Assembly (NCBI GenBank): GCA_022264855.1
Contig: JABYQU010000015.1
Coordinates: forward strand, 620,001-684,000
DNA from: Lenzites betulinus
Taxonomy: Eukaryota > Basidiomycota > Agaricomycetes > Polyporales > Polyporaceae
DNA: 64,000 nucleotides
Direction of reading: 5' to 3'
The notes beneath the pieces were generated by a model. That model was not told the origin of the DNA, did no database searches, and was given only the letters and a program-made list of their open reading frames with translations. Shown one piece after another: positions 8,648 through 61,918 of this stretch (its first letter is position 1; each line of letters begins with the position of its first letter). The position numbers and the translations under genes are program-made.

Positions 8648-11600
8648 TTACAACCCGACGATGGCTTCCGCGAGCTGATCCAAGCCTTCCAACGTCTCTC
8701 TAGCCATCACGCGCACGACGTCGTCCGCGTCCGTCGCAGCGATGTAACCCAACGTTACCCTCGCGCGCCTGAGCAGCTCTGGCGGCAAGAGCATCCGATC
8801 CGCACTTCCTGTCTCGTATACATGGTTTGTGCACGCCTGTGTGAGCAGCGAAAGGAAATGAAGCGCCGCCCGACGGAGCGGAGGGAATTTCGTATTCGCA
8901 GATGTTGGCTGCGTGTCCATCGTTGCAGGCGGTTTGTTGACACCCTTCTCGTCATCGTTGGCGTCCGGGTCGGGGTCCGGCTCCGAACGGGGCTCCGTCT
9001 TACGCTGAGTCGCCGGGACAGATTCGACTTGGAGAAGGTCGACCATGGCGTCCGCGAAGTCGACGGTGTACGGCAAGGCCGCGAGTGCGTTTGTCTTGAC
9101 GCACTGCGCGAGCAGCGATATAGCGGACGTGCGCAAGACAGTCGGGAAGTGGGAAGCACGGATGACTTGGAAGAGTGGAGCGATGACAAGCGACGCTGCG
9201 AGAGTTCAGTCAGCCAGTGTCATTCGTGGACACGGTGTTGTGATTTTCCTACTGTAGGATGGCAAGGCATCTCCGCAGCGCCGGATGACCTGTGCGAGGG
9301 CCTCTCCGATGCGCGTCCGCATATCGACGTCATGCTGCGACATTGTGCTCGCGCTCAGCCCGTCGAGGCCGTCCGAGTAGGCGGAAACCAAGCTGCGAAG
9401 GACCTCCTTCCCGAACCCGTCTACCATCGCTGACAGACCCTGGACCGCGTTCAGAAACATGTACGAGTCGTCATCTTGGATCGACTGCATGAATATCGAC
9501 AGGATTCCAGGAATGAGCGCACGGTCTACCGAGGGCTCGGCAAGCTTCCCGGACGCGTCCTTGTGGGGCAACACCAGCTGCCGCAACAGCATGAGGCCAT
9601 GAGCGCGCACGGGCAAGAGAGGGTCCTGGAGGAGCTTTAGCGCGTTCTGATAGGTCTCTTGTGCATCCTCTGCGCCGTCCGACGAGGGTGACTTCTTCAT
9701 CTTTCGGCCGGCGGTCTCGGAAGTTGACGCGAGGCGGGCTGTCATAACCATCCGAGCCTCGCGGGCGAGAGACCGCAGGTCGTCCCCCGACGCCTTGGAC
9801 AAGGGCTCGAGTAGAGAGAATATGTCATTCAGTACGGGAGCGGTGCGTGCGGACAGATCGGGGTTGGCTGCGTTGCTTTTAGCGATGACGCAGTGAACGT
9901 CAAACTAATCCAACGCACCTTCGAGAACGGACAGCAGGAGCTTTACCGCGGTGGATGTCATATCATCGGGGCCATGATCTTGACTATCTTCGTCATCTTC
10001 ATCGTCGCTGTCGCCTGCTTCTAGGTCTTCAAACGCCTCATCTTCCTCCGGAACGATGCGCAGGTCGTCTATGTTGAGTCCGGCCCTCCCTTCCGATCTT
10101 CGTCCGCCCACCGATGCCTCCGCTTGTCGCGGGTTTTCCAGCGCATGTTTGATGAACAAGAGGATATGCTCTGGTCTCTTCAGAACACTCGAGGTATCAT
10201 CTGTAGACAGCTGTTTCTGCATCTGTAAAACCAGCTGCAAATATAGCAGAGTTCTGCGTGAATGTGTCAGTTGCTAAGTTTATGTTGAAGAATTGGCGGA
10301 TTACTTCAGAGGGTCCATATCTGCGTGAACTCTGAAATTCCGGTATGCCTCTAACAGCTGGACAAACAAGTCGGAAGATACGTCCGCACGGCCGAGAGTT
10401 TTGATGAATTGCACGAGCCGAACTGGGTCGGGCTTGAGACCTAGCAGATTAGAGTCAATGTCGAACTCTCCGGCTTCCTCTGCTTCTTGCAGGCTTTGCG
10501 GGGTGAAAAGCGACAAAGGATCCTCATTCCCCTCAGGTATGCTGCCATCTCTGCGTGAGCACCTTCCACAGTCATGATCGTACTGACCCCCACCTTTCCA
10601 CCCTTGATATCTCCCCCGCAATGTCTACGCGCCAATCGCTCGTTTCGCCGTTGATGATGCGCCATAGCGTCGCAATAACCTCTTCCTTGTTCACAAGCCT
10701 CCCCCATGTCGCAAGGAAGCTCTTGATGGTTTCCCGAACAAGGGGGTCGGACGCCTTCGCTTGCTCCAGATACGCATACAGCGAGTATAGCGAAGGTACG
10801 ATGGGTGTGAGAAGCGAAGTGATAAGATGCGGTGACGGGTCAGTGTTTGTCAGGATGACCTGTATCGTGCGCAGTGACTCTGTAGGAGATAGGTCTCCTG
10901 AGCCTGTGATAAAGGTCAGCACGTTGTCGCTGCGTACAATAAGAAGGTTTACCATTCAAAATTGGATTGTGCAGTGTGGAGAAGACCAGCTCTGTCGTCA
11001 ATGTCTTTTTCTCGACGTCTTCGTTCGTCAGCAGACGTGACAACGAAAATGCGATGCCACGACGGTGCGCAGGCGGAAGGCTCCGATCGTCCAGACTAAG
11101 CAGTAGTAGCATACGCGGGACCATAAGGCCAAGATAATCCTGTGAAAGATGTGAAGATAATTTCCCCTGCAGCTGTCGTAGGACTGACCTGGGCCTTCAT
11201 GCCTGCGGGAATCGCGCTCAGCAGACGCGACACATGTTCGAGCTTATCCAAGGCGACATCTTCTCCGGAGGCATCCTCCTCCCCAAATATGGATTCGCAC
11301 AGTCCGCGGACTCCATCGGGACGTAGCAGCTGACGGCTTAGCAGGAATGTGCATGTCTTGCGGACGTACGGCAAAGAAGACGATGCGTGCGTGAGTGCTC
11401 GGCCCACAGCGGATATGACATGGGAAGCTGGGAGCCTGTGTAAGATCGATCAGTGGGAATGCGGGAGTGTGACCAACGATGTGGGTACCTTGAAAGAAGG
11501 TGCATAACGAGGGGACGAACGCTATCGGCTGTAGGCATGTCTTCTGAGGCTAATGACTTCGGAAGCCATCCAATCACAATGCAGGGCACCAGGAGGTCTG

Positions 11601-12708: not shown

Positions 12709-15323
12709 TTGTCTGCCCATCGTCCTTTGGAACGACGGATACAGCTGTACGCCCCGCCCCGCCCTACCAGTCCCGCCGACATGAGACTACCAGGTGCTTT
12801 TCATACCTCTGACGATCACTATGCTCCCAGCGCCGCCCCTAAGGTTGCAGAGGACGACGATAGCGTCACTCCGCTCAAGATCCTCTCGGGAAAGATACCC
12901 GAGTACGTTGTGACTCATCCTGGACAAAGCCAGTACAGCCAAGCAGGCGGCGGCGTGTCCGCTTGCGGTCTTGCTGCCCTCAACTGCGCAAGACTCGTTC
13001 TCGGGCTACACCGCACCGGCCTTGCCACCGTCGAGCTCGTGCGAGAATTGATGGGGAGCCATATTTTGGAGGTAGAACGACTTTTTGCTCCTGTGCCGAG
13101 CTGAGAGATGTTTGCTCATCGACGTGGTACTAGGACGTCCTGAAGCCTTGCCTGACATGGGAGAACTCCGGCCACCTCCAAGTGGAAGACATTTACAAAG
13201 CCCCCTTGTTCAACAAATCGATGACGCATCTGTCCTCCTCTTATGGGCCATCGAATTACGCGTTCTTGTCAAGAGTTGTCATGTCTGTCCATTTCAAGCT
13301 CACCTCCTTGCAGACACCTCTGACGTATCCATGTCCTCCCCAGGGGTCTCGCGGATGTCACCAAAGAACGCGGCGTGTCCGCCTGCACGATCATCACCCG
13401 TCCGCCCGAAATCCTCGCCTGCTTCAGCATCGCCAACGTCCCCGCCGGCACCCAGCTCTTCGTCATCTTCGACTCGCACCCGCGCCCAGACAAGCACCCG
13501 CACGGCGCCGCCTTCATCTTCTTCAACTCCGTGCGCAAGGCCGCGCGCTACCTCGCGGATCTCCTGCATTTCGACGAAGGCATCCTCGAGGAGTCGGGCA
13601 TGCAGTGGCAGGCGCAGCTCCTCTCGCAGTGCTCAGGCGACGTTTTTGTCACGTCTGATACGCCCCCCGACAGCGCCCAGTGGGCAGAGGCCGCGCTGGA
13701 GGCGAGCCTGCTAGCGCTGAGCGCACAGGCACGCGTGCGCGAGCTTGAAGAGCAGAAGGTGGAGCTCGAGGGCCAGAAGAAACGTCTCCGCGAGGAGATC
13801 TCCGGGCTCGAGCGGGATCTCCTCCAGCTGGATGACATGTTCCAAACGGAGCGGCGAGAGCGGAGGAGGGAACGGGACGAGTTCAATAGGAAGCAGTCCG
13901 CCGCAGCGTATACACAGGGAGGCTGGGGTTCGTATTGGTGGAACAAGGGCACTGCGACGAACAGTTTTTGGCGTCCGGTGTCTTCTGCGGGCGACAACAG
14001 ACATGATGCGGATGCTAAACGCGATGGCCAGGCTCACGGCGACAGCAGCACGTCAAAAGACATGGACAATTGGCGCACTGCTGGCAAAAGGCGGCATGGG
14101 TCCTCGCGGCGTGGTGGCGACCCAAGGCGCGAGAGCGAGACACTGCGCGAGGACGAAGCGAGGCACAAGGACGTCCGTGCGCCGGCCGCGGGTGCGAATA
14201 GGGCGACTCCCGCCCCTCCTGCGCCCTCCCCCGCGCTCGACCGCGTTCCCTCCGTAGACCCCGTCGCGGTACAGCTCCAGATCTACTACGATGAGGAGAA
14301 CCGCATGCTCGAGGACCAGTTCCGGCAGCTGCAAGCGGAGCAGCCCCAGTTCTTTGAGTGTGGCATTTGCTTTGAGCAGATCCAGGAGGACTACATCGCG
14401 CGCGTGCACCCGTGCAAGCACGCGTTCTGCAGGGACTGCCTTACGGGCTGGGCGGGTTCGAAGATCGACGAGCACCGGTATCCGGTTCTGTGCCCCGTAT
14501 GCGTGGCTGACCGGAGTCGTAAGGAGGCTCCCGGAGGTGCGTGGGCCTATGGGCATGTACGATTCGCTGAGATGCTAACAATGTGTACACCACAGAGGTA
14601 GACGACGAGGCAATTCAGCAGCTCGGCCTGACGGAGCAGCAGTACGCGGTGTTCGTCGAGATGCAGATGAACCAGTTCTCTACGATTATTGATTGTCACG
14701 GGTGCGTTTTTCTACCTGGCCTCCATATAGTTTACATAATGCATAGCTGACAGCAAACGATTCACGGCGATAGATGCAAGGAGACCCTGTTCGTGGACAG
14801 GGACGAGTACCAGAACAGCAAGATCATCCACTGCCCGTTGAAGGGATGTGGCTACGTGTGGTGCAAGGTGTGTTCGCAGAAGGTCGATCCCAAAGGCCCG
14901 GAGCACTCGTGCGACGGCACAAACGAGCTCGAGCACATCATGAAGGAGAAGGGGTGGAAGCACTGCCCGGGTAAGTCACGGTCATATATTTCTCGCCAGC
15001 TGTGAGCTTTCGGGGCACGCTGACCCTGCACTCAGGATGCCAGACTCCTGCAGAGAAGATAAGTGGGTGCAACCACCTGTCGGTAAGTTGCAATCGGGGC
15101 TGCTTCCTCTTCTTGTGCAAGGCTGACGCGAGGTGTTTATCGTAGTGCCTGACCCCGGGCTGCAATACGTTAGCGCCCGCCATTGAACTCACCTTGTCAC
15201 TGGGGCTGACATCTACTGTGCAGACACTTCTGCTACCAGTGTGGTGTGCTTATCGTGCGCTCCGCGCTGCCTAGGGAGATCGCCCAGACCAAGGCAGAGC
15301 ATTTCAAGCGGTGCCAGGCCTGA
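12709..15323 (+). CDS. Papain-like cysteine peptidase-like domain fused to an RBR E3 ubiquitin ligase
   Basis: Eight exons (12709-13071, 13134-13267, 13344-14536, 14596-14701, 14774-14970, 15036-15082, 15146-15168, 15224-15323) give 720 residues with consistent phases. The C-terminal part is a complete RING-between-RING ligase: RING1 from residue 505 (CGIC...HPCKHAFCRDC...CPVC), IBR near 600-650 (C-P-x3-C...WCKVC...H-x-C) and RING2 near 663-705, with GCNHL holding the expected catalytic cysteine. RBR ligases take ubiquitin from an E2 onto that cysteine before transfer. Residues about 30-260 look like a papain-fold peptidase: Gln73, Cys86 in GVSACGLAALN, and Asp209-Ser-His211 in FVIFDSH. A coiled coil (about 300-350) and a charged linker join the halves. 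Possible starts are 12709 and 12781. The ligase call is firm; the peptidase call is inference from motifs. Confidence 0.85.
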
Positions 15324-15517: not shown

Positions 15518-17524
15518 TCAAGCGTTCGAAACAGAGAGGTTGGCGACACCCTCCGCAGCTTCGTCGATCGTCCCCACGTCGATGAGCTTCGTAATCTATG
15601 TATAGCGGGAAGGCACGAATGATTAGCACATGTACAAGGCGAGCAGCATAGCGGGTTCACCTTGCCGATGGCGATCGTCTTGCCCTCGTCTCGGAGGGTG
15701 AAACGGCCGAGTTGTGGGTAGTCGACGAATCGTTCAACGCATACGGGCTCGGTAGTCTCGATCAGAGCGACGATCTTCTGACCCCTCTTCGCGAACTGTG
15801 GAGGCTTCTTCGACTTGCGGCCTGTCGCCTTATCGAAGTAGTGAAGGAGAGACTACGAAGGTCGTCAGCACGCGCTGTGGCAAGAACATTTCCGTGAGTA
15901 CATACAGCGAGCGTGACTTCCTCAGAAAGAGTATGGCAGTGCATGACGGCGGAGTAACCCGCGCAGATGATACTTTTGTGGTCGAGGATGGCAAGCTGTG
16001 CTTCGAACTGGCGGACCGCATGGATAGGGTGTGATGGGCTCGTGAGGACGAAGCCCGGGCTGATTTCCTCATCGTCGACGCCGCGCAACCGAATGCGGAC
16101 GTTGTCACCGCACATGCCATACTCAACCTCATCCTCCATTTCGTTGTAGACCGCGGACACTTCGACCAGGTTCTTGTTCGGCATGAGGAGCAGGGTGTCG
16201 CCTTTGTGCATATGCCCGGATTCGATTTTCCCGACGACGATCGTGCCCATATCCTTGTACTTTTCCGAGACGGGCATCATGAGGGGCCCGTTGATCTTCC
16301 GTTCAACCATGGGCATCCTGTCAAGGAGCTCTAGCAATGCTGGGCCACTGCGGACGGCCGGTCAGCACTTGGGTACTTGCGCGGTTTGCCGATCTACTTA
16401 CTCCCACCAGTCGGCCACACCCTTGGCTACCCTGTCTTTCAGGTTGGCACCGGTGTACGCGGATACTGGGATGAACGTCACATCGGTCTTGATATTGAAG
16501 CCTGCGGCCTTGATGAACGGCGTAAGCTTATCCTTAATCTCATCGTACCGAGCCTTGCTCCATCCGACAGTCGGTTCGTCCATCTTGTTGATGACGACGA
16601 TCACCTTTTGCACGCCGGCAGTCTTGACCAACATGATGTGTTCCCTGGTCTGCCCACCCTTTTCGAATCCAGTCTCGAACTCGCCCTTCCGGGCAGAGAT
16701 GACCAGGATAGCTACGTCCGCCTGCGCCGCGCCGGAGATCATGGAGGGCACGAAGGTCTTGTGGCCAGGCGCGTCAAGGATGGTGTACCGCCGTGTATCG
16801 GTCTCGAAGTAAGCGCGACCCACTTCGACGGTCTTGCCCTTCGCGCGCTCCTGCGGGGTGGAATCGAGGGCCCAAGAGAGGTACCACGAGTCCCGGCCAG
16901 CCTCCTTGGCCTCCCGCTCGTACTTCTCCATGGTACGCTTATCGACCATACCCGAGAGGTAGAGGATGTTCCCGCCCATGGTACTTTTGCCCGCATCGAC
17001 GTGCCCGATGAAGACGATGTTCAGGTGCTGCTTGGCTGGTTGTGGTTATTGTCGTCAGTAATCGAGGCTAACTTCACGATTAGATACGCACTATGTCCGA
17101 ATAGGTCCTTGAGGGTCTCCTCATCGGCCGCGGCCTTGACATCCAGGGCTACCGCAGTTGTATCTGTCTTCGCGCGCTCAAGGGTGAACGATTTGGCCGG
17201 CGCTGAAGGTGCTTTGACTGAAGATGTCGCCGGTGCTGTCGGCTTGGTTGCGGCAGGTGCGGAGGTCTTCTGCACGGCGGGCGCAGGAGGTGGCGGAGCG
17301 GGCTTCGGTCCTCCGATGTTGAGTGAAATGGTAGGTGGCGGAGAAGGGGGGCGCGACGACGGCTTTGGGGCTGGCTTGGGTCCACCGATACTGAGAGAGA
17401 TGGTGGGGGCAGGTGCAGGAGCTTCCGTCTGTGGAGGTCGTTCTATCGGCTGAAGAGGTGGTTGAGCAGGCTGGAAGCCGCCGCCCGGAACAAAGGAGAA
17501 AGCGTTTGCGTTGAGCTTGCTCAT
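15518..17524 (-). CDS. SUP35: Translation termination factor eRF3 (Sup35) with N-terminal PAM2 motif
   Basis: GTPase partner of eRF1 in stop-codon recognition and peptide release in the cytosol. Five exons (17092-17524, 16402-17035, 15906-16347, 15661-15852, 15518-15595) give 592 residues with all phases correct. The G domain shows GHVDAGKST (P-loop), DAPGH (G3), NKMD (G4) and SAYTG (G5); beta-barrel domains 2 and 3 follow to the stop. The N-terminal region of about 160 residues is Pro/Ala-rich and not Gln/Asn-rich as in yeast Sup35. It starts with LNANAFSFVP, which fits the PAM2 consensus (LNxxAxxFxP) bound by the MLLE domain of poly(A)-binding protein, and holds two near copies of TISLxIGGPKPAP. 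EF-1-alpha and Hbs1 are excluded by the N-terminal extension and the KTFVPSMISGAAQAD wording. Confidence 0.93.
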
Positions 17525-18270: not shown

Positions 18271-21200
18271 ATGGCGGCAGAGCCAGACACGTATCTTGCA
18301 GTGCTCAAGGCTTCCTATGACTATGACCCACAGCCCGACTCCGAGGACGAGATAGCAATCAAGGAGAACCAGATCCTATTTCTCCTGGAGCGGACCGACG
18401 ACGAGTGCGATTGCCCCCTTCGCTGACCCAGTTCATTCTCTAACCACCTGTGCAGCTGGTGGAAGGTTAAGGTCAAGTCCGAAGACGAGGGCCCCTCCGG
18501 ACTAGTGCCCTCTGCCTATGTTGAGCTCGTATGTAGCTCTGCATCACGTACCCGGTCCACCCCGCTCACGGTGGATGTAGGCCGACCCCATCCAGGTCGT
18601 GAAGGCTCTGTACGACTACGATGCAACACAGCCAACGGAACTCACCGTGAAAGAAGACGAGATACTTCATGTCTACGAGAGGGACGAGGACTGGTTGCTC
18701 GTTGCGAGCCCTACAGGAGAGGGCAGAGTCGGCTACATCCCGGGCAATTATGTCGAAGAGGTGCGCTACTATTCAAAACTACTTCCTTCCACAGCCCCTG
18801 AACATTGTGGGTCTCTCCAGACCAGTGCAGACGAAGCGGACGCTGCTGCCGCTGCTGCTCCTGCAGCCCCAGCTGTGTCATCGTTCGCATCAATTGTCAT
18901 TCCGGATTCGGTGGGTACACCTTTTGCTGCTCCCTGACACGCTTATGTGAACATCCTCGGTATAGCCACCCAAACCCTCCCGTCCTCTTAGCACGTATGT
19001 CGATCCCGCGGACAGAGTTGCGGCCACTGCGAACAAGGCACAAGCCGACTCTATCCAAACGTGGGCCATCTCCGAAGTCGATGCCAAAGGGAAGAAGAAG
19101 AAGGGGACCCTCGGGATTGGCAACGGTGCGATGTTCTTCGCGAGCGAGTCCGATAAGGTCCGTCCCACCCGCGTTCACCCTGCCCCCCGTCTGGTCTCCG
19201 GATCCTCACAGAGACGCCGCAGAATCCCGTCCGGAAATGGCAGACCGCAGATATACAGTCCGCGAAACTCGAGAAGTCCAAGCACGTCCACATCGATGTC
19301 GGTGGCCCGGATCCCACCAGCCTCCATTTCCACGCAGGCGGCAAGGACACCGCGGAGGCAATCATGGCCAAGCTCGAGTCCTCGCGCAGCATCGCTGGCG
19401 GAGCCAATGGTGCTGCTGCGCCTGCCTCTCCGCCGCGTGCTAGCGCGTCCACGGAGGAGCCCATCGAACGTCCACGTAGCAGCGCCCAGAAGTCGGTACA
19501 CTTTGCTCCAGACGAGCCGGAGGAGATCCCGTTGTCGGATACGTATCCAGAGGACGAGCCGGAGGAGGCCCCTGAAGAAGAGGAGGAACTCGTGGAGGCA
19601 GAGGGCGAGACCGCGGTGGTTCTCTACGACTTCTCGGCCGACGGGGATGACGAACTGACCGTGCACGAGGGCGAGACCCTGATTGTCCTGGAGAAAGACA
19701 GCGCCGAGTGGTGGAAGTGCCGGAACGCCGCCGGAGACGAGGGCGTTGTTCCCGCCAGCTACGTCGAGGTACGAATGGTGCTTGTCATTTATCATCTCCC
19801 GTGACTCACTCATGTCATCGCCAGACTGTTGGTGATTCGCCCCCCGCTGCTGCACCCCCAGCCCCGGCCCCATCGTCTTCTTCTCAGGCTGCTGGACAGG
19901 CGGCTGCGGCTGCGGCCAAGGCGAGGGCTGCCAAAGAGTCCGCCGCGCGAGAGGAAGCTGAGCGTCACGAGGCAGAAGACCGCGAACGGCGCGGGCGCGA
20001 GCGTGCGGAGAAAGAGCGCAAGAAGCAAGAGGCGGAGCAGCGAGCCAAGGCTGCTGCCGCTGCCGCCGAAGCTGACCGAAAGCGTCGCGAGCGTGAGCGC
20101 GAGAAACAGAAAGAGAAGGAACGGGCTGTAGTCGCAGACGACGACGCGAAACGGAAGGAGGAGCGGCTGTCTGTGGACGGTGCCACAGCGAGGTTGCCCA
20201 AAGTCGGGAGATCGTCGAGTGACGCAAAGCGTATGTTCTCGCATATCACGTGCTACAACATTGGACACTGACGCAGTGTCGTAGGCGCTCCTCCTTCGGA
20301 GAACCTACGCGTATGGCACGACCGAACGGGGCAGTTCCGCGTCGACGCTGCGTTCCTTGGATACGCAAACGGCAAGCTGAGACTGCACAAGGTGAACGGC
20401 GTCGTCATCGAAGTGCCGGCGGAGAAGATGTCGGCGGAAGACTTGCGCTATGTCGATTCGCTCACCAAGAAGAAGTCCGGCAGCTCCTCGCGAAAGTCGG
20501 ATGACGACGATAACCAGCCGCTGGCGGAGCGTCGCATGTCGCTTCTGCCCGAAGCCACACGCGCGAAGGAGGCTGCCTCGAAAGCGCCGGTCAAGAAGGG
20601 TCCTACTATCGACTGGTTCGAGTTCTTCCTGAATGCCGGGTGCGACGTCGACGACTGCACGCGGTACGCGTCCTCGTTCGAGCGCGACAAGATCGACGAG
20701 GCACTCCTTCCGGACATCACGGAATCGACGATGCGCTCGCTCGGGCTGCGCGAGGGGGACATCATCCGCGTCAAGAAGGCCATCGAGCAACGGAAGCCCA
20801 AGTCCAACGCGCGCGAAGAACAGATCAAGAAAGACGAGGAGATCGCGCGCCAGTTGCAGGCGGCGGAGGAGAACGGCACGAACCTGAAGACCCGCAGTCC
20901 TGCCCCCGGCCTATTCTCTGGGCCAAACGGCGAGCTCAAAGCCCCGGCGCGCCGCGGCCGCCCCGAACGCAAGACACTAGCGCCGTCGACCGTCGACCTG
21001 CAGGGCATCTCTGCCGCATCCGACGCGATCAAGCGGACCGACTCTCCCTTAGTCGCAGGCCCAGAAGGCATTCAGCAGTCTGTCTCGAGTCCTGCGGAGC
21101 TTCCGTCGAAGTCGAGTACGGCGGACCCGACGCACAAGTTCGACAACGACGCATGGACGGTTCGTCCGGCCTCGGTGAAGCCTGCAGCTGCCACGCCGCC

Positions 21201-22472
21201 TGCGGTTGCTGCACGCCCGCCGTCTGCACCCCCGGCACCACCGGCCCCCCCGGCCCCGCCAGCACCAGCCCAGCCTGCGGTTACCGTAAGTCCTCCGCCG
21301 GTACGCGCTGCCTCCGTCGCCTCCGGTGCTCCCGCACAGCAATCACAACCGAACCTCGCGAAGACAACGGACAACGACATCTTCGAGCAGCTCGCGCGGC
21401 TCAGCCAGCTCCGCGTCAGCAGCCCTGCCGCACCGCAACCGATGCCTCCGCAGGCCCCTCCACGAGCGCCGTCGGTCAGCATCTCGACGCCCGTCGGCTT
21501 CCAGTCAGGTATGGGCATGGGCACCTCGCCTGTGCCGATGGGACACGCCCTCCAGGCGCAACAAACCGGCATGCTCCCATCCTCGTCCCCGATGAACGGG
21601 CCGCGCGGGCCATTCGCGCCGGTCCCGGCGAACCAGTCCCTCCTGCAGCCGCTCGTGCCGACGACGACCAACTTCACGGGCTTCATGCCCACGCGCCAGG
21701 CAGCGTCACCCTCGCCCTTCCAGCCTATGCAGCAGCAGCAACAACAACAGCCGATGCTCGCCCAGCCGACGGGCTTCCAAGGGGGGTCGATGCTCCAGCC
21801 GCAACAGACTGGGTTCCCGATGCAGCAGCCGATGATGTCGCAGCCGACGGGCATGCCCAACGGTGGCTTTGGCGGGATGGGCGGTGGCATGTCTGCCTTC
21901 CAGTCAAATCCGGGTTATATTCAGAGCAGTGCGTTGTATCGTATTCTATGTGTGTTCACTCTATTAACTTGGCCTGCTTTAGACCCCACAGGATTCGCAC
22001 CTATCCAGAGCAGTGAGTCGAGCAGTCATACGCGCCGTGAGATGTCATGCCTAATGCCTTTCACAGACCCGACTGGATTCAACCCTGGCTACGGAGGGTC
22101 GCCGTTCGGTAGCGGAAGCTACAGCGTCCAGGCGCAGCCCCCGCCGCCACCACCGCCAGCGCCAGCGCCGCCCGTAGTCAACACCAATCCCGCTAATATC
22201 TTTGCCCAAATGAAGAGCGGAAACTTCGCCGACGATGACGGGGGTCCGCAATCGCAAGGTGCGCGCTACCCGCTACAGTACGCGGCGTGATGACTAACCA
22301 AGGCTTGCAGATAAATACAACGCACTCCGCCCTAATCGTAAGCCTGCACTTCTCTAGGCCTCAGGGAGCGCAACTGACATTCTCCCCAGCTCAACCTATT
22401 CCCGTCCAGGCGACCGGCTGGGGCAACTTTGGTGGTATGAATGGCTACCAGGGCGGAGGATACGGCTACTAG
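18271..22472 (+). CDS. SLA1: Sla1-type endocytic adaptor (three SH3 domains, SHD1, SHD2, TG-motif tail)
   Basis: Adaptor of clathrin-mediated endocytosis that links cargo and clathrin to actin assembly at cortical patches. Twelve exons give about 1,201 residues, phases verified. SH3-1 (about 7-68) and SH3-2 (about 72-130, ALYDYDATQ...GYIPGNYVE) are at the N-terminus. SH3-3 (about 355-408, VLYDFSADGDDELTV...GVVPASYVE) is followed by a Lys/Arg/Glu-rich helix. SHD1 (about 546-605, RVWHDRTGQFRV) binds NPFxD cargo, and SHD2 (about 650-712, IDWFEFFLNAG) is a SAM-like domain. The Pro/Gln-rich tail has repeated LxxQxTG-type motifs (LQAQQTG, LQPQQTG, IQSNPTG, IPVQATG), the sites used by Ark1/Prk1 kinases in yeast. 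The motif IQSNPTG is repeated through two small exons (see findings). Confidence 0.93.
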
Positions 22473-29701: not shown

Positions 29702-31053
29702 ATGGCACAGTCAATCCCGACTGGTGCCTCGGCGGCCGTTCTGAAGCCCTCAGAACCCATGCCAGACTTTGCGGTCTCGGTCGAAGGGCCCAATTTCGAA
29801 CAGGACATATCTCTTCAGCAGCTATTGGACAGCTACAAGAGGATCGGATTTCAGGCGAATAGTTTGGGACAAGCGATTGACATCGTGAACAAGATGGTAT
29901 GGTCGCCGTATGCGCTCGCACGACCACTCACGCATTCAATTACCAGCGTAAATGGCGACTCTCGGAAGAACCTATTGGAGCCGACGAATCTGATGAGTAC
30001 TTGGATCCAGACGTCCGCGCCAACACCAAATGTAACGTCTTTCTGGGCTACACGTCGAACCTCATATCTTCTGGGCTACGGGAAATCATTCTTTACCTCG
30101 TAAAACACAAACATATCAGCGCCATTGTCACTACGGCTGGCGGTATCGAAGAGGACTTCATCAAGTGCATCGGCAAGACATACCTCGCCGACTTCAGCCT
30201 GGATGGTGCAGATCTCCGAAAGAGGGGAATGAATCGTATCGGGAACCTCATTGTGCCAAACGACAACTACTGCAAGTTCGAGGACTGGTTGACGCCTATT
30301 CTGGACGCCATGCTTGTGGAACAAAAGGCGACGGGTCAGGTGTGGACCCCGAGTTCGTTCATCCGCCGGCTAGGAAAGGAGATCGACAATGAGGAATCTG
30401 TATATTACTGGGCCTACAAAGTGAATATATGTGCTCTCGGTTCTGTCCGTTCGCGCTGAGCTCCGCTTGCATTCTTTAGAACGACATCCCTGTGTTCTGT
30501 CCCGCGCTCACGGACGGCTCCCTGGGGGACATGATGTACTTTCACTCTTTCAAGAATCCGGGCTTGGTGGTGGATATCGTCCAAGATATCCGTAACATCA
30601 ATGAGCTCTCGCGCAAGTCACGAAAGGCTGGAATGATTATCCTCGGCGGTGGTGTCTGCAAGCACCAAATAGCCAACGCTATGCTGATTGTACGTAGTTT
30701 GCACTTCGATGCCGCTGTGTGCTGGACTAAGATGTATTTCATAGCGTAATGGCGCTGACTACTCGGTGTACATTGTGAGTCCAACCCTCTGTAAGCGAAG
30801 CGCACGTTTCTAACTCCTCGGGCAGAACACTGGGCAAGAATTTGACGGTTCAGATTCTGGTGCTCGGCCAGATGAGGCTGTTTCCTGGGGAAAGATACGA
30901 GCGGGTTCGGAGTCCGTTAAGGTACGCATCGGACATCAAAGAGCATGCTCAAGTTGCCATTTTAATGCCTCCTCCAAGGTGTATGCGGACGCGACTTTGG
31001 TCTTTCCGCTCCTAGTTGCCGCCACTTTTGCCAAACCAACCCCATCTGAATAG
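29702..31053 (+). CDS. DYS1: Deoxyhypusine synthase
   Basis: Uses spermidine and NAD to modify one lysine of eIF5A to deoxyhypusine, the first step of hypusine formation. Six exons (29702-29896, 29947-30420, 30480-30689, 30745-30774, 30826-30921, 30979-31053) give 359 residues, normal for the family. Landmarks are [43 protein letters not shown] and [12 protein letters not shown], which contains the active-site lysine; then [18 protein letters not shown] and a C-terminal [12 protein letters not shown]. Every intron is phase 0. No key residue appears lost. Confidence 0.96.
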
Positions 31054-40158: not shown

Positions 40159-41428
40159 TGTGCCGCTCTCGGCGAGGTCCCCAAGCCCGAGAACAAGGCG
40201 AAGCTGGCCATTGCCCCAGGTACGACAGATCCCAAGGGCAAGGAGCGCGTCACGGAGATCAAGGAGAAGTTCGAGGGCGTTGTCCTCAAGCAGACCACCA
40301 CAACCACGACCGTCCGCAAACCTTTGCGCACGGTGGTGGAGTCGACGACAACTGCGACTGCGGTGGCGGTGTCGCGTCGGACTAGGAGCACAACCACTGG
40401 AGCTCACTCGCAGGGCCATCATCATGCCAAGCCGCTGGAGGTACTACGCGAGCACGACGAAGACGCAATGGCCATTGACCCTCATCCCCCTGCACCCATT
40501 CCCTCTCCCCAACGATTTGTAGCTGCCCGGGACGCTGTTAGGGCAGGCACCACCGCTGCTTCACGAGTACCCCGGCGGATCTCGTCGCGTTCATTAAAAC
40601 AGGAGGACGATGACGAAGAGGCACACCGCACGCACAAGAAACGGCGAACGTCGTCTGACGTCCCGGACGTCGCGGCCATGCACGAAGAGGAGGTTGAAAA
40701 CACTGTGATACCCAAGGAGGATGTGGATGCCGATCACGAAGAGGAGCTTTGGGATGACTTGGATGCAGAGGACGCAGACGACCCGCTCATGGTGAGCGAG
40801 TACGTGGTTGAGATATTTGAGTACCTCAAGCAAGTCGAGGTATGTCATAATTTGCATGAGTGTATGCGCGTTTCTCATCCTTTTGCAGCAAACCACAATG
40901 TCGAACCCCAACTACATGACGAACCAGAAGGATCTCGCGTGGAAAATGTGTGGTATCCTCACCGACTGGCTGATCCAAGTCCACTCGCGCTTCCGTCTGC
41001 TCCCTGAGACCCTGTTCCTCTGCGTCCACATCATTGATCGTTTCTTGTCCGCTCGTGTCGTCTCCCTCGCAAAACTTCAGCTCGTCGGGATTACCTGCAT
41101 GTTCATTGCCGCTAAGGTAGAGGAGATCGTTGCGCCATCCGCTAGCAACTTCCTCCTTTGCGCAGACTCCTCGTACACGGAGGCTGAGATCCTACAGGCG
41201 GAGCGCTACGTCCTGAAGACCATCGAGTGGAACCTCAGCTACCCCAACCCGATTCACTTCCTCCGCCGCATCAGCAAGGCCGACGACTACAACGTCCAGG
41301 TACGGACCGTCGGCAAATACCTGCTCGAGATCCAATGTCTCGAATGGCGTCTCATCGCTGCTCTGCCCTCACTGCTGGCCGCTGCCGCTGTATGGCTCGC
41401 CCGGTTGATTCTTGGCTACACGAACTGG
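40159..41428 (+). CDS. B-type (mitotic) cyclin fragment, 5' and 3' ends missing
   Basis: Two exons (40159-40839, 40889-41428) read in one phase. The first holds a Lys/Thr-rich N-terminal region and acidic stretch up to VSEYVVEIFEYLKQVE. The second holds the cyclin box: QKDLAWKMCGILTDWLIQVH (the MRGIL-type CDK-binding segment, here MCGIL), LFLCVHIIDRFLS, FIAAKVEEI, and the start of the second fold up to ARLILGYTNW. An in-frame TAG directly before 40159 is read here as the end of an intron, and no matching 5' exon with a start was found. After 41428 the expected last 70 or so residues of a B cyclin are absent. The destruction box is reduced to CAALGEV, lacking the first Arg. It may be a pseudogene or a captured fragment. 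Confidence 0.7.
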
Positions 41429-41744
41429 GTAAGTCTAGCAATATACATCTGGGAAGGCTTCCATGCTCATGACGTCGCAGACACCTAGCTTCATTTGCCG
41501 GATGATGCTTCACATGCAGCACACCCGTATACCATCGGGACACCTCCATTCACATGGACAATGGGAGCGGCGGGAGAAGTTTAACTTACATGTATGTCAT
41601 GTGATTGGACTTGCACATTCGGGATGCCTTCTGCATCCGCGCGTTGCCTGTTCGATGAGGATTGTGAGCACACTCTGCCCGAGACTCTGAAGCACTGCCC
41701 TGCCCTCGCCCTCGCCATCGTGCTTCCTAGAGCAACTTGTACAT

Positions 41745-57252: not shown

Positions 57253-57628
57253 TGGGCGGAAGGTAACCGCTCTTCGATGGGGCCATTCAGGCCATCCCCG
57301 GGTTCTCGTTTTGTAATTGTATGCCAGTTGCCCCGAACTCAATGTGGTGTTTTCGTGCTATACTTTGTTACCTGTGCATGTCGACCCCGTGTCGCGCAAA
57401 GAAATGCCATGACTGACGTAAAATCTATCGTAAAAGTACGAGGCGTGTACATCATGTGTGGGCGCCCATGGGTGTAGGCGGGAATTGGTGTATGAGGTCA
57501 CCGTGTGACTGGACGCTTCGATGATCTGACTCGTTAACTTGCTCTCCGGGATTGGCGACCTCTGACTCTACCCCATCGATGCTTGGACTCTTATCTTGTG
57601 ACCTCTCAGCCGCATAGAATGTGCTTAC
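57253..57628. other. Intergenic, 3' of U1-C and 5' of SUA5
   Basis: About 375 bases between two plus-strand genes. No gene or repeat seen. Confidence 0.45.
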
Positions 57629-58918
57629 ATGCACCGGTTCCGGTATCTCTGGCATAGATGTGCATCGCGGAAAATTTCTCCAGCTAAGGCTCAACCAACG
57701 ACTCTTCTAACAACCATGCAATTCACGACCCATGTACTCCCCTGTGACCCGGCGTCGGTCTCTTTTCAATCGGACAGGCCCATCGTCGAATCTGCGGAAA
57801 CGCAAAAGGCGTTGGAACGCGCCTCGGAGCAACTTCACGCCCTCCAAACGGTCGCGTTCCCTACCGAGACTGTATACGGTCTCGGCGCTCTAGCCCTTGA
57901 ACCTGACGCGGTTTCGCGCATCTTCTCCACCAAGGGTCGCCCACCAGACAACCCGCTCATCGTTCACGTGTCGTCGCGTGAAATGTTGGACCGGGTACTG
58001 CCCAAGGGCTACAAAATGTCGCAGACGTATGAAGCCCTCGTAAAGCGTTTTTGGCCAGGACCTCTTACCCTCCTCTTCCCCACCGACCCAACCATCGTCC
58101 CCTCTATTATCACAGCAAATCAGCCGACCGTCGCGGTGCGGATGCCCTCCCACCCCGTCGCGAGAGCCCTCATCGCGCTCGCAGACGCGCCGGTTGCCGC
58201 CCCGAGCGCTAACTCTTCGGGCAAGCCGAGCCCTACAAGAGCCGAACACGTCTTCAAAGATCTTCACGGGAAGGTGGGCGTCATTCTGGACGGAGGGCCA
58301 TGTGGGGTGGGACTGGAGAGCACAGTTGTAGACGGGCTACAGGAAGACGGGAACCTACGCGTGTTGCGCCCAGGAGGGGTAACGGTGGAAGACCTCGAGC
58401 GCGTCGTCCGCGAGGATCTCGCAGATCTCCTCCCACCGCCGCGGGTTCTGGTGCACCGACGCGACTTTCACGACGAGGCGATGGAGCAGGCGCCGACGAC
58501 GCCCGGGATGAAGTACCGGCACTATTCTCCCAGTGTACCGGTGACGTTACTGCACACCCAATCCTCGCCTCCTCCTGGTACGCAGCGCGTTCCCGTGAAG
58601 GATTTCGCGGAGTCTCTCAGGGCAGGCGCAGGTGATCTCGGGAGGCCACTCCGCGTCGGGATACTGTCACCCTCCGATTCCTCTCTTCCGGCGACCCTGC
58701 TGTCGCTTGCGGTGCCTGGCGTAGAATGGACTTTACACGTGCTCGGGCCCATCGCCGAACCAGCCGTATCCGCTCAAAGACTGTTCGACGGACTGCTTTC
58801 TCTTGACGGCGCGAAGATGGACCATATCATAATAGAAGAGATACAGGAGGAGCGGGAGGGGCTTGCGGTCATGAATCGCGTGAAGAAGGCCTCTGGAGAC
58901 ACTGTGTGGATAGAATAG
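57629..58918 (+). CDS. SUA5: Sua5 threonylcarbamoyl-AMP synthase
   Basis: Makes threonylcarbamoyl-AMP from threonine, bicarbonate and ATP, the first step of the t6A37 modification of ANN-decoding tRNAs. This is an intronless gene, rare in this window, of up to 429 residues. The YrdC domain shows FPTETVYGLGALAL, STKGRPPDNPLIVHV, WPGPLTLL, VAVRMPSHP and APSANSSGKPSPT. GMKYRHYSP is the ordered linker before the Sua5 C-terminal domain. Two in-frame ATGs are possible: 57629 gives an Arg/Lys-rich, Asp/Glu-free extension (MHRFRYLWHRCASRKISPAK) like a mitochondrial presequence; 57716 gives MQFTTHVLPCD, the usual start. Confidence 0.94.
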   Translation: MHRFRYLWHRCASRKISPAKAQPTTLLTTMQFTTHVLPCDPASVSFQSDRPIVESAETQKALERASEQLHALQTVAFPTETVYGLGALALEPDAVSRIFSTKGRPPDNPLIVHVSSREMLDRVLPKGYKMSQTYEALVKRFWPGPLTLLFPTDPTIVPSIITANQPTVAVRMPSHPVARALIALADAPVAAPSANSSGKPSPTRAEHVFKDLHGKVGVILDGGPCGVGLESTVVDGLQEDGNLRVLRPGGVTVEDLERVVREDLADLLPPPRVLVHRRDFHDEAMEQAPTTPGMKYRHYSPSVPVTLLHTQSSPPPGTQRVPVKDFAESLRAGAGDLGRPLRVGILSPSDSSLPATLLSLAVPGVEWTLHVLGPIAEPAVSAQRLFDGLLSLDGAKMDHIIIEEIQEEREGLAVMNRVKKASGDTVWIE

Positions 58919-60024: not shown

Positions 60025-61513
60025 ATGCAGCCGAACCGTATGTGATGTTGTGTCCTCGTGGTGCATGTAGACTTTGTTAACATCCCCGATTAGGCCACAA
60101 CACTGCGTCCCCTTTCCTTCCCTCGTGTGCATCGCCTGGCGCGCTGCCCCAGGGGACCCCGGACACAGAGTGGAACTTCGGCGGACTCGCCCTGCCTTCC
60201 CGCACAAGCACTCCCGCCCTCAGTGCGGGGCGCTCTACCCCGAGTCAAGGGCAGGTTTCCATGAGCCACGAGCAGTTTCAATACCTCATTGCACTTATCC
60301 ACTCCAACCGGGCCGGCTCCTCCTCTGATGGGGGCTCCGCCAGCAGCTCCCCCGCTATTCCCAGCCTCGCGTCCTTTAGCCCGTCGCTCGGCCAGGTCTC
60401 TTTGTCTCGTCCCGGGACCCCGGATGTCACGAAGCGCAAGCGCATTCCCCGCCCTCCGAACGCGTTCATGCTCTACCGTTCTCACCTCCTCAAGACGCGC
60501 CAGATCCCCCCGGGGGTTGAGCACCGCCAGCAGAACATCAGCCGCGTCGCTGGGGAGTCATGGAACATGCTCCAGCCGGAGGAGAAGAAGCTCTGGCACG
60601 ACAAGGCGAAGGAGGTGTTGACGGCACACATGGCTAAGCACCCCGACTACAAATTCTCGCCCGAGCGCAAGGCTTCCCGGCGCAAGACGCCACTGGACCC
60701 CGACACCCCCGCCATGACTGGTGAGGACTACATCCGGTCCCTCCGCGAAACGTACCTGGGCCTTAAGGGCCCTGCCCCCAAGCCTTCGCGTCAACGCAAG
60801 CCTAAGTCGCGCCGCGGCGTCGAGGCGAGCGAGCCCCCCTCCTTCTCCCTCCCAGGCTCTCTTCGGGCATCGCCCTCTACATCCCCCGACATCCCGCACG
60901 TTGCCTCTGCGCCTCCTTCGCTCTCATCGTCCCCGGTGACCGAGCATGCCGCTGCTGCGCATGACCCCACCTTCAACGTGTACGATGCCTGGGCTGCTTT
61001 CCGCCAACCCCCTCAGAGGGACGAAGAGCAGAAATTCGACCTGCTGAGTGCTCAGGCCAATGCGTATGACAACGACACGGTACGTCTATCCCTTCGTTCA
61101 CCCCATGAGTTGCTGCTCATCATCTGCTGCAGACGCCTAAGAACTCGTCGTTCGGGGAGATCACCATCCCCGCCCAGCCGAAGTTCAACTTCCCGTCCTC
61201 GCTCGGCTTCCCCGGCTACGGCCTCGACGAGTCCCATCTGGGCTTGGACAACGTGCCCCTGCCCGGGCAGACGGGCGCAATGGCGTCGCAAGGTCCCTCC
61301 GATTCCGCCACCCCCGCACAGTCCGACCTCTACCCGCTCGACTCAATGTGGGCGAGCCTCATCAACGACCCCTTCGGCCAGAACGGCGGCGCGGAGGCCA
61401 GCGGCTCAGGGACGCAGGACGACTCCGCAGGCTCCCCCTTCGCGTCGGGCGAGAGCAGCAACCTCATCGACTTCGAGAGCGTCCATTTCCCCCTCTTCTC
61501 GGGCACCGACTGA
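60025..61513 (+). CDS. HMG-box transcription factor (MATA-HMG type)
   Basis: Sequence-specific DNA-binding regulator. Three exons (60025-60037, 60094-61079, 61133-61513) give 459 residues. The 13-base first exon (MQPN) was chosen because it splices in phase to an open frame that runs upstream of the internal Met at 60261. The HMG box lies at about residues 118-190: RPPNAFMLYRSHLLKT, NISRVAGESWNML, EEKKLWHDKAKEVL and HPDYKFSPERK. The RPPNAFMLYR wording is that of fungal MATA/Rop1-like proteins. The rest is Ser/Pro-rich and the C-terminus is acidic. It may act in mating or development, but no target can be read from sequence. Confidence 0.88.
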
Positions 61514-61918
61514 ACGTCGCGCCGTTCTCTCGTCGGCGGCAGCTGGCTGTCTGCTGATGTCATTTCCCTCTTTCTCTCCTACTCTTTCTCTTTGTCCTGG
61601 TCATCATGTTCCTTTCATACCCGCAATGTAGCCCTCCTCTCGTTACATGTCTTCCACGCAGTCTCAGGTCTCATCATGTCTCCATAATCGTGTGTTTGTA
61701 CATATATCCATGACTGTATCCATAGCCCGTTTCTCCGTTCCACAATTGCCCTGTGCAGCGCACACCTCCGGACTTCGCAGACAGGTGGAAATTCTTGTAT
61801 GAACGGAACTCCGGCCCGGGACAGTGTTTTGCTGCACGATCGGTGTCGGCTGTTCCCGAAATCATCTTCGCCTTCTCCCTCTCCGCTGCGCCCGGGACAT
61901 TTCACGTCTTCTGTACCT
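61514..61918. other. Intergenic, 3' of HMG-box gene and 5' of DBP8
   Basis: About 400 bases, starting with a long C/T-rich stretch just after the stop. No gene called. Confidence 0.45.

Follow-up and report, generated by a model that had tools for sequence, protein, structure and literature searches.

A predicted VTD deubiquitinase domain and an RBR ubiquitin ligase encoded by one gene of Lenzites betulinus

Results

The window analysed here, a stretch of 64,000 nucleotides from the basidiomycete Lenzites betulinus (contig JABYQU010000015.1), carries at positions 12781..15323 of its forward strand the VTD-RBR gene, which encodes in one chain of 701 residues a deubiquitinase-like (DUB) half of the VTD type and a RING-IBR-RING (RBR) ubiquitin ligase half. 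The spliced translation of its eight coding exons matches letter for letter the database protein P0001 (C2E23DRAFT_884804) of the same species, which also ranks first among the gene's database matches, and all seven introns have GT...AG borders. The original prediction had placed both halves in one protein at this locus. This is confirmed, with conservation far above chance among 144 relatives (the best 120 of 190 database matches, plus 24 new ones). The start that it gave, position 12709, is however a TTG codon; the first in-frame ATG lies at 12781, so that through exon 2 its residue numbers exceed those used here by 24. That exon ends at 13282, reproducing P0001 exactly, rather than at 13267 as the earlier numbering implied, which adds five residues (SRVVM) and brings the spacing into agreement with relatives such as P0021. 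Queries for database relatives, Pfam, single-sequence and genome-copy searches used the shorter form of exon 2 (13134-13267). A search of the L. betulinus genome (37.4 Mb in 108 contigs) found no second VTD copy; its three matches were all exons of the VTD-RBR gene itself.

All exons lie on the forward strand. Exon 1 (12781..13071, residues 1-97) encodes the N-terminal tail and the start of the VTD with Q51 and the catalytic C62 (in GVSACG), and exon 2 (13134..13282) the middle of the VTD (HLQVEDI..APLF), in which P121 is invariant and F123 nearly so. Exon 3 (13344..14536) completes the VTD with ITRPPEI, D190-x-H192 and the W235 helix, and continues through a long helix (257-335), a disordered linker (337-448) and a helix (453-479) to the whole of RING1 (C486-C533), so that DUB and ligase are joined within a single open exon. 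The RING1-IBR linker and the first zinc ligand of the IBR, C578, are encoded by exon 4 (14596..14701); the remaining IBR ligands (C581, C600, C605, C610, C613, H624, C626) and the first RING2 ligand, C644, by exon 5 (14774..14970). RING2 is spread further over exon 6 (15036..15082; C647, the catalytic C657 in GC-NHLS, and H659), exon 7 (15146..15168; zinc ligands C662 and C667) and exon 8 (15224..15323; C672, C675, H695, C699 and the stop).

The putative active site of the VTD half is strongly conserved. C62 is a cysteine in 122 of the 125 rows that have a residue there, while 19 rows, mostly partial or short gene models, have a gap. The exceptions are P0025 (another annotated N-terminus), P0259 (a model without the VTD) and P0251 (decayed). 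D190 is aspartate in 142 of 143 rows and H192 histidine in 141 of 143. The residues originally proposed as catalytic, Cys86 and Asp209-x-His211, become C62, D190 and H192 after renumbering. Gln73, now Q49, 13 residues before the cysteine, is not conserved, threonine (50/107) and arginine (22/107) being common there; the conserved glutamine is Q51, 11 residues before C62 (121 of 126 rows; 103 of 107 in a smaller alignment). VTDs generally require a conserved glutamine before the catalytic cysteine, and we infer that Q51 contributes to the oxyanion hole. The D-x-H arrangement, taken at the outset as a hallmark of peptidase family C76, is present here, but is not unique to that family, since UFSP2 and ATG4 share it according to the available text of PMC9741609.

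In the predicted structure the VTD half has a papain-like fold closest to VTD/M48 structures, as the original prediction expected, and VTD structures ranked first when the whole-protein model was given a second look with VIA-align. With the same model as query, the best 50 Foldseek rows against the PDB held RBR/RING structures and MCF-like toxins and no VTD structure, and in the viral table herpesvirus tegument proteins appeared at ranks 18, 26, 32 and below, with whole-model TM-scores of at most 0.2. The model helix 231-241 (QWQAQLL), in which W235 and L240 are conserved, is a candidate for alpha-9, a feature of the K6-specific VTD subgroup (K6, ubiquitin chains linked through lysine 6). Pattern scans based on the VTD profile, one each for prokaryotes and viruses, pointed to 29 genome and 13 viral stretches, among which tblastn confirmed no VTD relative; because the patterns were derived from fungal sequences, this is not proof of absence.

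The RBR half is complete, as originally proposed: in an alignment of 64 sequences, each of the 24 Cys/His ligands of RING1, IBR and RING2, and C657 as well, is either invariant or conserved to 90% or more, and the Pfam RING and IBR models scored above cut-off. C657 is a cysteine in 140 of the 141 rows with a residue, the exception (P0257) falling in a stretch that resembles a faulty exon joint. By analogy with C431 of parkin and C357 of HHARI, we take this residue (in GC-NH) to be the catalytic cysteine of RING2. Pfam listed neither an Ariadne nor a ubiquitin-like domain for the Lenzites protein. Between the halves, the linker 337-448 (about 110 residues) is predicted to be disordered, and the preceding long helix, 257-335, is probably a coiled coil, judging from the model. 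A ubiquitin-interacting motif (UIM) between the VTD and this helix was considered, since residues 260-272 are loosely similar to one and S268 is kept in 136 of 144 rows. It is not claimed, and in a scan of 64 members the Pfam UIM was not among the best 25 of the 201 families matched.

Variation among the relatives, as judged from annotated database gene models, concerns both copy number and completeness. Each of the 14 species compared has at least two family models: four in Irpex rosettiformis (P0054, P0055, P0075, P0084; their contigs are equal in length), three in Mycena sp. CBHHK59/15 and two in each of the other 12. The Mycena models are 94 to 98% alike in the compared parts, so some may be alleles. 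These two to four models per species differ from the published description of a 'single protein' (available text of PMC9741609), although some close pairs may be allelic. In P0251 of Chiua virens, the D-x-H site reads N-x-R and the cysteine column holds Asp; in P0254 of Scleroderma citrinum, a partial model that does not reach the cysteine region, it reads D-x-R. Both keep C657 and H659, which suggests possible pseudo-DUB ligases; in C. virens another copy, P0258, is intact. One of two Wolfiporia models (P0259) has no VTD. Three models of Pluteus cervinus (P0128, P0129, P0130), each on a contig of 76 kb, comprise the VTD and the helical region without the RBR, their D-x-H sites reading DPH, DPH and DPN. 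Erven et al. call the active sites of all fungal and protist members conserved, in the available text of PMC9741609, to which P0251, P0254 and the Pluteus models would be exceptions.

In four of the 14 species, the two members of a same-species pair (P0002/P0003, P0011/P0012, P0014/P0110 and P0015/P0021) resemble each other 13-14 points more closely in the VTD than in the RBR, whereas means over all pairs per identity band show the opposite trend, by 1 to 10 points. Gene conversion or faulty gene models may account for the four pairs. P0263 of Ceratobasidium sp. 392 (1190 residues) contains two consecutive VTD-RBR units, the second with a shortened RBR, and probably represents two tandem genes fused by annotation.

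Tail to tail with the VTD-RBR gene, downstream on the reverse strand (15762-17045), lies a gene for an EF-Tu-type GTPase of translation (Pfam GTP_EFTU, domains 2 and 3 included) that resembles eRF3. Yeast ITT1 binds eRF1/eRF3; an RNF14/ITT1-type ligase standing here beside an eRF3 partner was considered but is not claimed, the sequence giving no evidence of kinship with RNF14. Pfam further identified RTP1 (8648-9904, reverse strand) and, on the forward strand, a SLA1-like protein (19157-22290), deoxyhypusine synthase (29881-30459), a cyclin (40796-41488), Sua5 (57602-58918) and an HMG-box protein (60081-61631).

Discussion

Sequence and predicted structure together indicate that the gene very probably encodes the Agaricomycete VTD-RBR protein of L. 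betulinus, with the anatomy given above and with two separate activities. The fusion was described by Erven et al. in 2022, who report it from most sequenced Agaricomycete genomes, while in Dacrymycetes the RBR occurs with no VTD attached (PMC9741609, available text). Ubiquitin cutting, which the original prediction wished to see assayed, has been answered on relatives: the VTDs of Serendipita indica (PIIN_06337) and Serpula lacrymans (LOC18815922) cut only K6-linked di-ubiquitin and did not react with mono-ubiquitin probes, according to the same text (PMC9741609).

Several observations weigh against this reading or parts of it. The profile of the VTD half reached no solved VTD among PDB chains, nor did a single-sequence search, and Pfam assigned it no family. 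Such a direct match is not a defining feature, because the published study, in its available text, needed iterated hidden Markov model searches to reach the fungal group (PMC9741609). Equating the QWQAQLL helix with alpha-9 of Wc-VTD1 follows from the D-x-H spacing and the model, rather than from a residue-level structural alignment. The predicted model has a predicted TM-score (pTM) of only 0.48, and therefore says nothing about a fixed arrangement of VTD and RBR. Our literature search found no assay of the Lenzites protein or of the ligase half of any fungal VTD-RBR protein. RNF144A and RNF144B, whose in vitro products show that RBR ligases making K6 among other links exist, make mainly K11, with K6 and K48 besides (PMC5640506, available text). 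Finally, models with one half or with a decayed VTD imply that coupling is not essential everywhere.

The picture originally drawn of a ubiquitin-cutting head and a ubiquitin-adding tail is supported overall. The RBR would accept ubiquitin from a ubiquitin-conjugating enzyme (E2) as a thioester on Cys657, as others of its family do, and hand it on either to a substrate or to its own chain; the VTD, held close by the disordered linker, whose flexibility would let it reach the ligase's own products, would trim K6 linkages from them; and a coiled-coil dimer might bring VTD and RBR together. We put forward this coupling of writer and eraser, and with it a self-editing ligase, tentatively, as somewhat less probable than not. 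The fuller form of the proposal, in which the K6 linkages cut by the VTD are those that the RBR itself makes, as a timed or self-limiting device whose functions were split after duplication in some fungi, is doubtful. If true, it would make the Agaricomycetes a natural experiment on the reason for joining the two activities, with boletes that have a dead VTD and a live ligase and Pluteus with VTD-only genes.

The two activities could also be combined differently. A20 joins an OTU DUB and a zinc-finger E3 ligase in one chain, and by analogy the VTD might strip K6 chains made by other ligases before the RBR adds a different linkage. The strict K6 specificity of both tested fungal VTDs and the K11-dominated products of RNF144A/B fit such chain switching, a K6-making RBR being just one option; the parallel with A20 is no more than an analogy, and we consider the scheme rather unlikely. 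Less likely still is that the DUB half mainly keeps the ligase from ubiquitinating itself and being degraded, with no role in substrate signalling. Auto-ubiquitination is common among RBRs, and tethering in cis through the linker would favour self-cleavage, but P0251 and P0254 keep the ligase cysteine despite decayed VTD residues, so that protection is not always needed. We reject the possibility that two adjacent genes were read as one: the exon joins are known here from DNA and the database protein alone, but D190-x-H192 and RING1 share one open frame in exon 3, both halves are annotated together in many species, and the fusion is published (PMC9741609, available text), leaving a negligible chance of a misjoined model.

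Beyond these schemes, the fusion of a K6-cutting enzyme to a ubiquitin ligase throughout a fungal class offers a good handle on K6 signalling, because little is understood of what K6 chains do and, by the 2022 authors' account, a truly K6-specific DUB is otherwise not known in eukaryotes (PMC9741609, available text). A literature search that left most subscription papers out brought up no publication on the fungal fusion after that of 2022.

Among known systems, the herpesviral large tegument DUB (M48, family C76) is set apart from the Lenzites VTD, which has no Pfam herpes tegument match; the fungal K6 group is likewise separated from the viral and transposon group in the available text of PMC9741609. 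The bacterial K6-specific VTDs, Wc-VTD1 of Waddlia and SnVTD of Simkania, share 13% identity with the Lenzites VTD over the aligned part, and the available texts mention no RBR half for them (PMC9741609, PMC10643670). On the ligase side, ARIH1 gives a profile match across the Lenzites RBR (E 9.4e-10), with RING1-IBR-RING2 and the catalytic cysteine in common, and HOIL-1, HOIP, RNF216, parkin and ARIH1 are fold matches. From the Agaricomycete VTD-RBR proteins of Erven et al. 2022 (available text), the Lenzites protein differs in nothing essential, sharing fungal class, fusion and conserved active site. The fusion is real but has been in print since 2022, and the Lenzites copy is an ordinary member of moderate biological interest.
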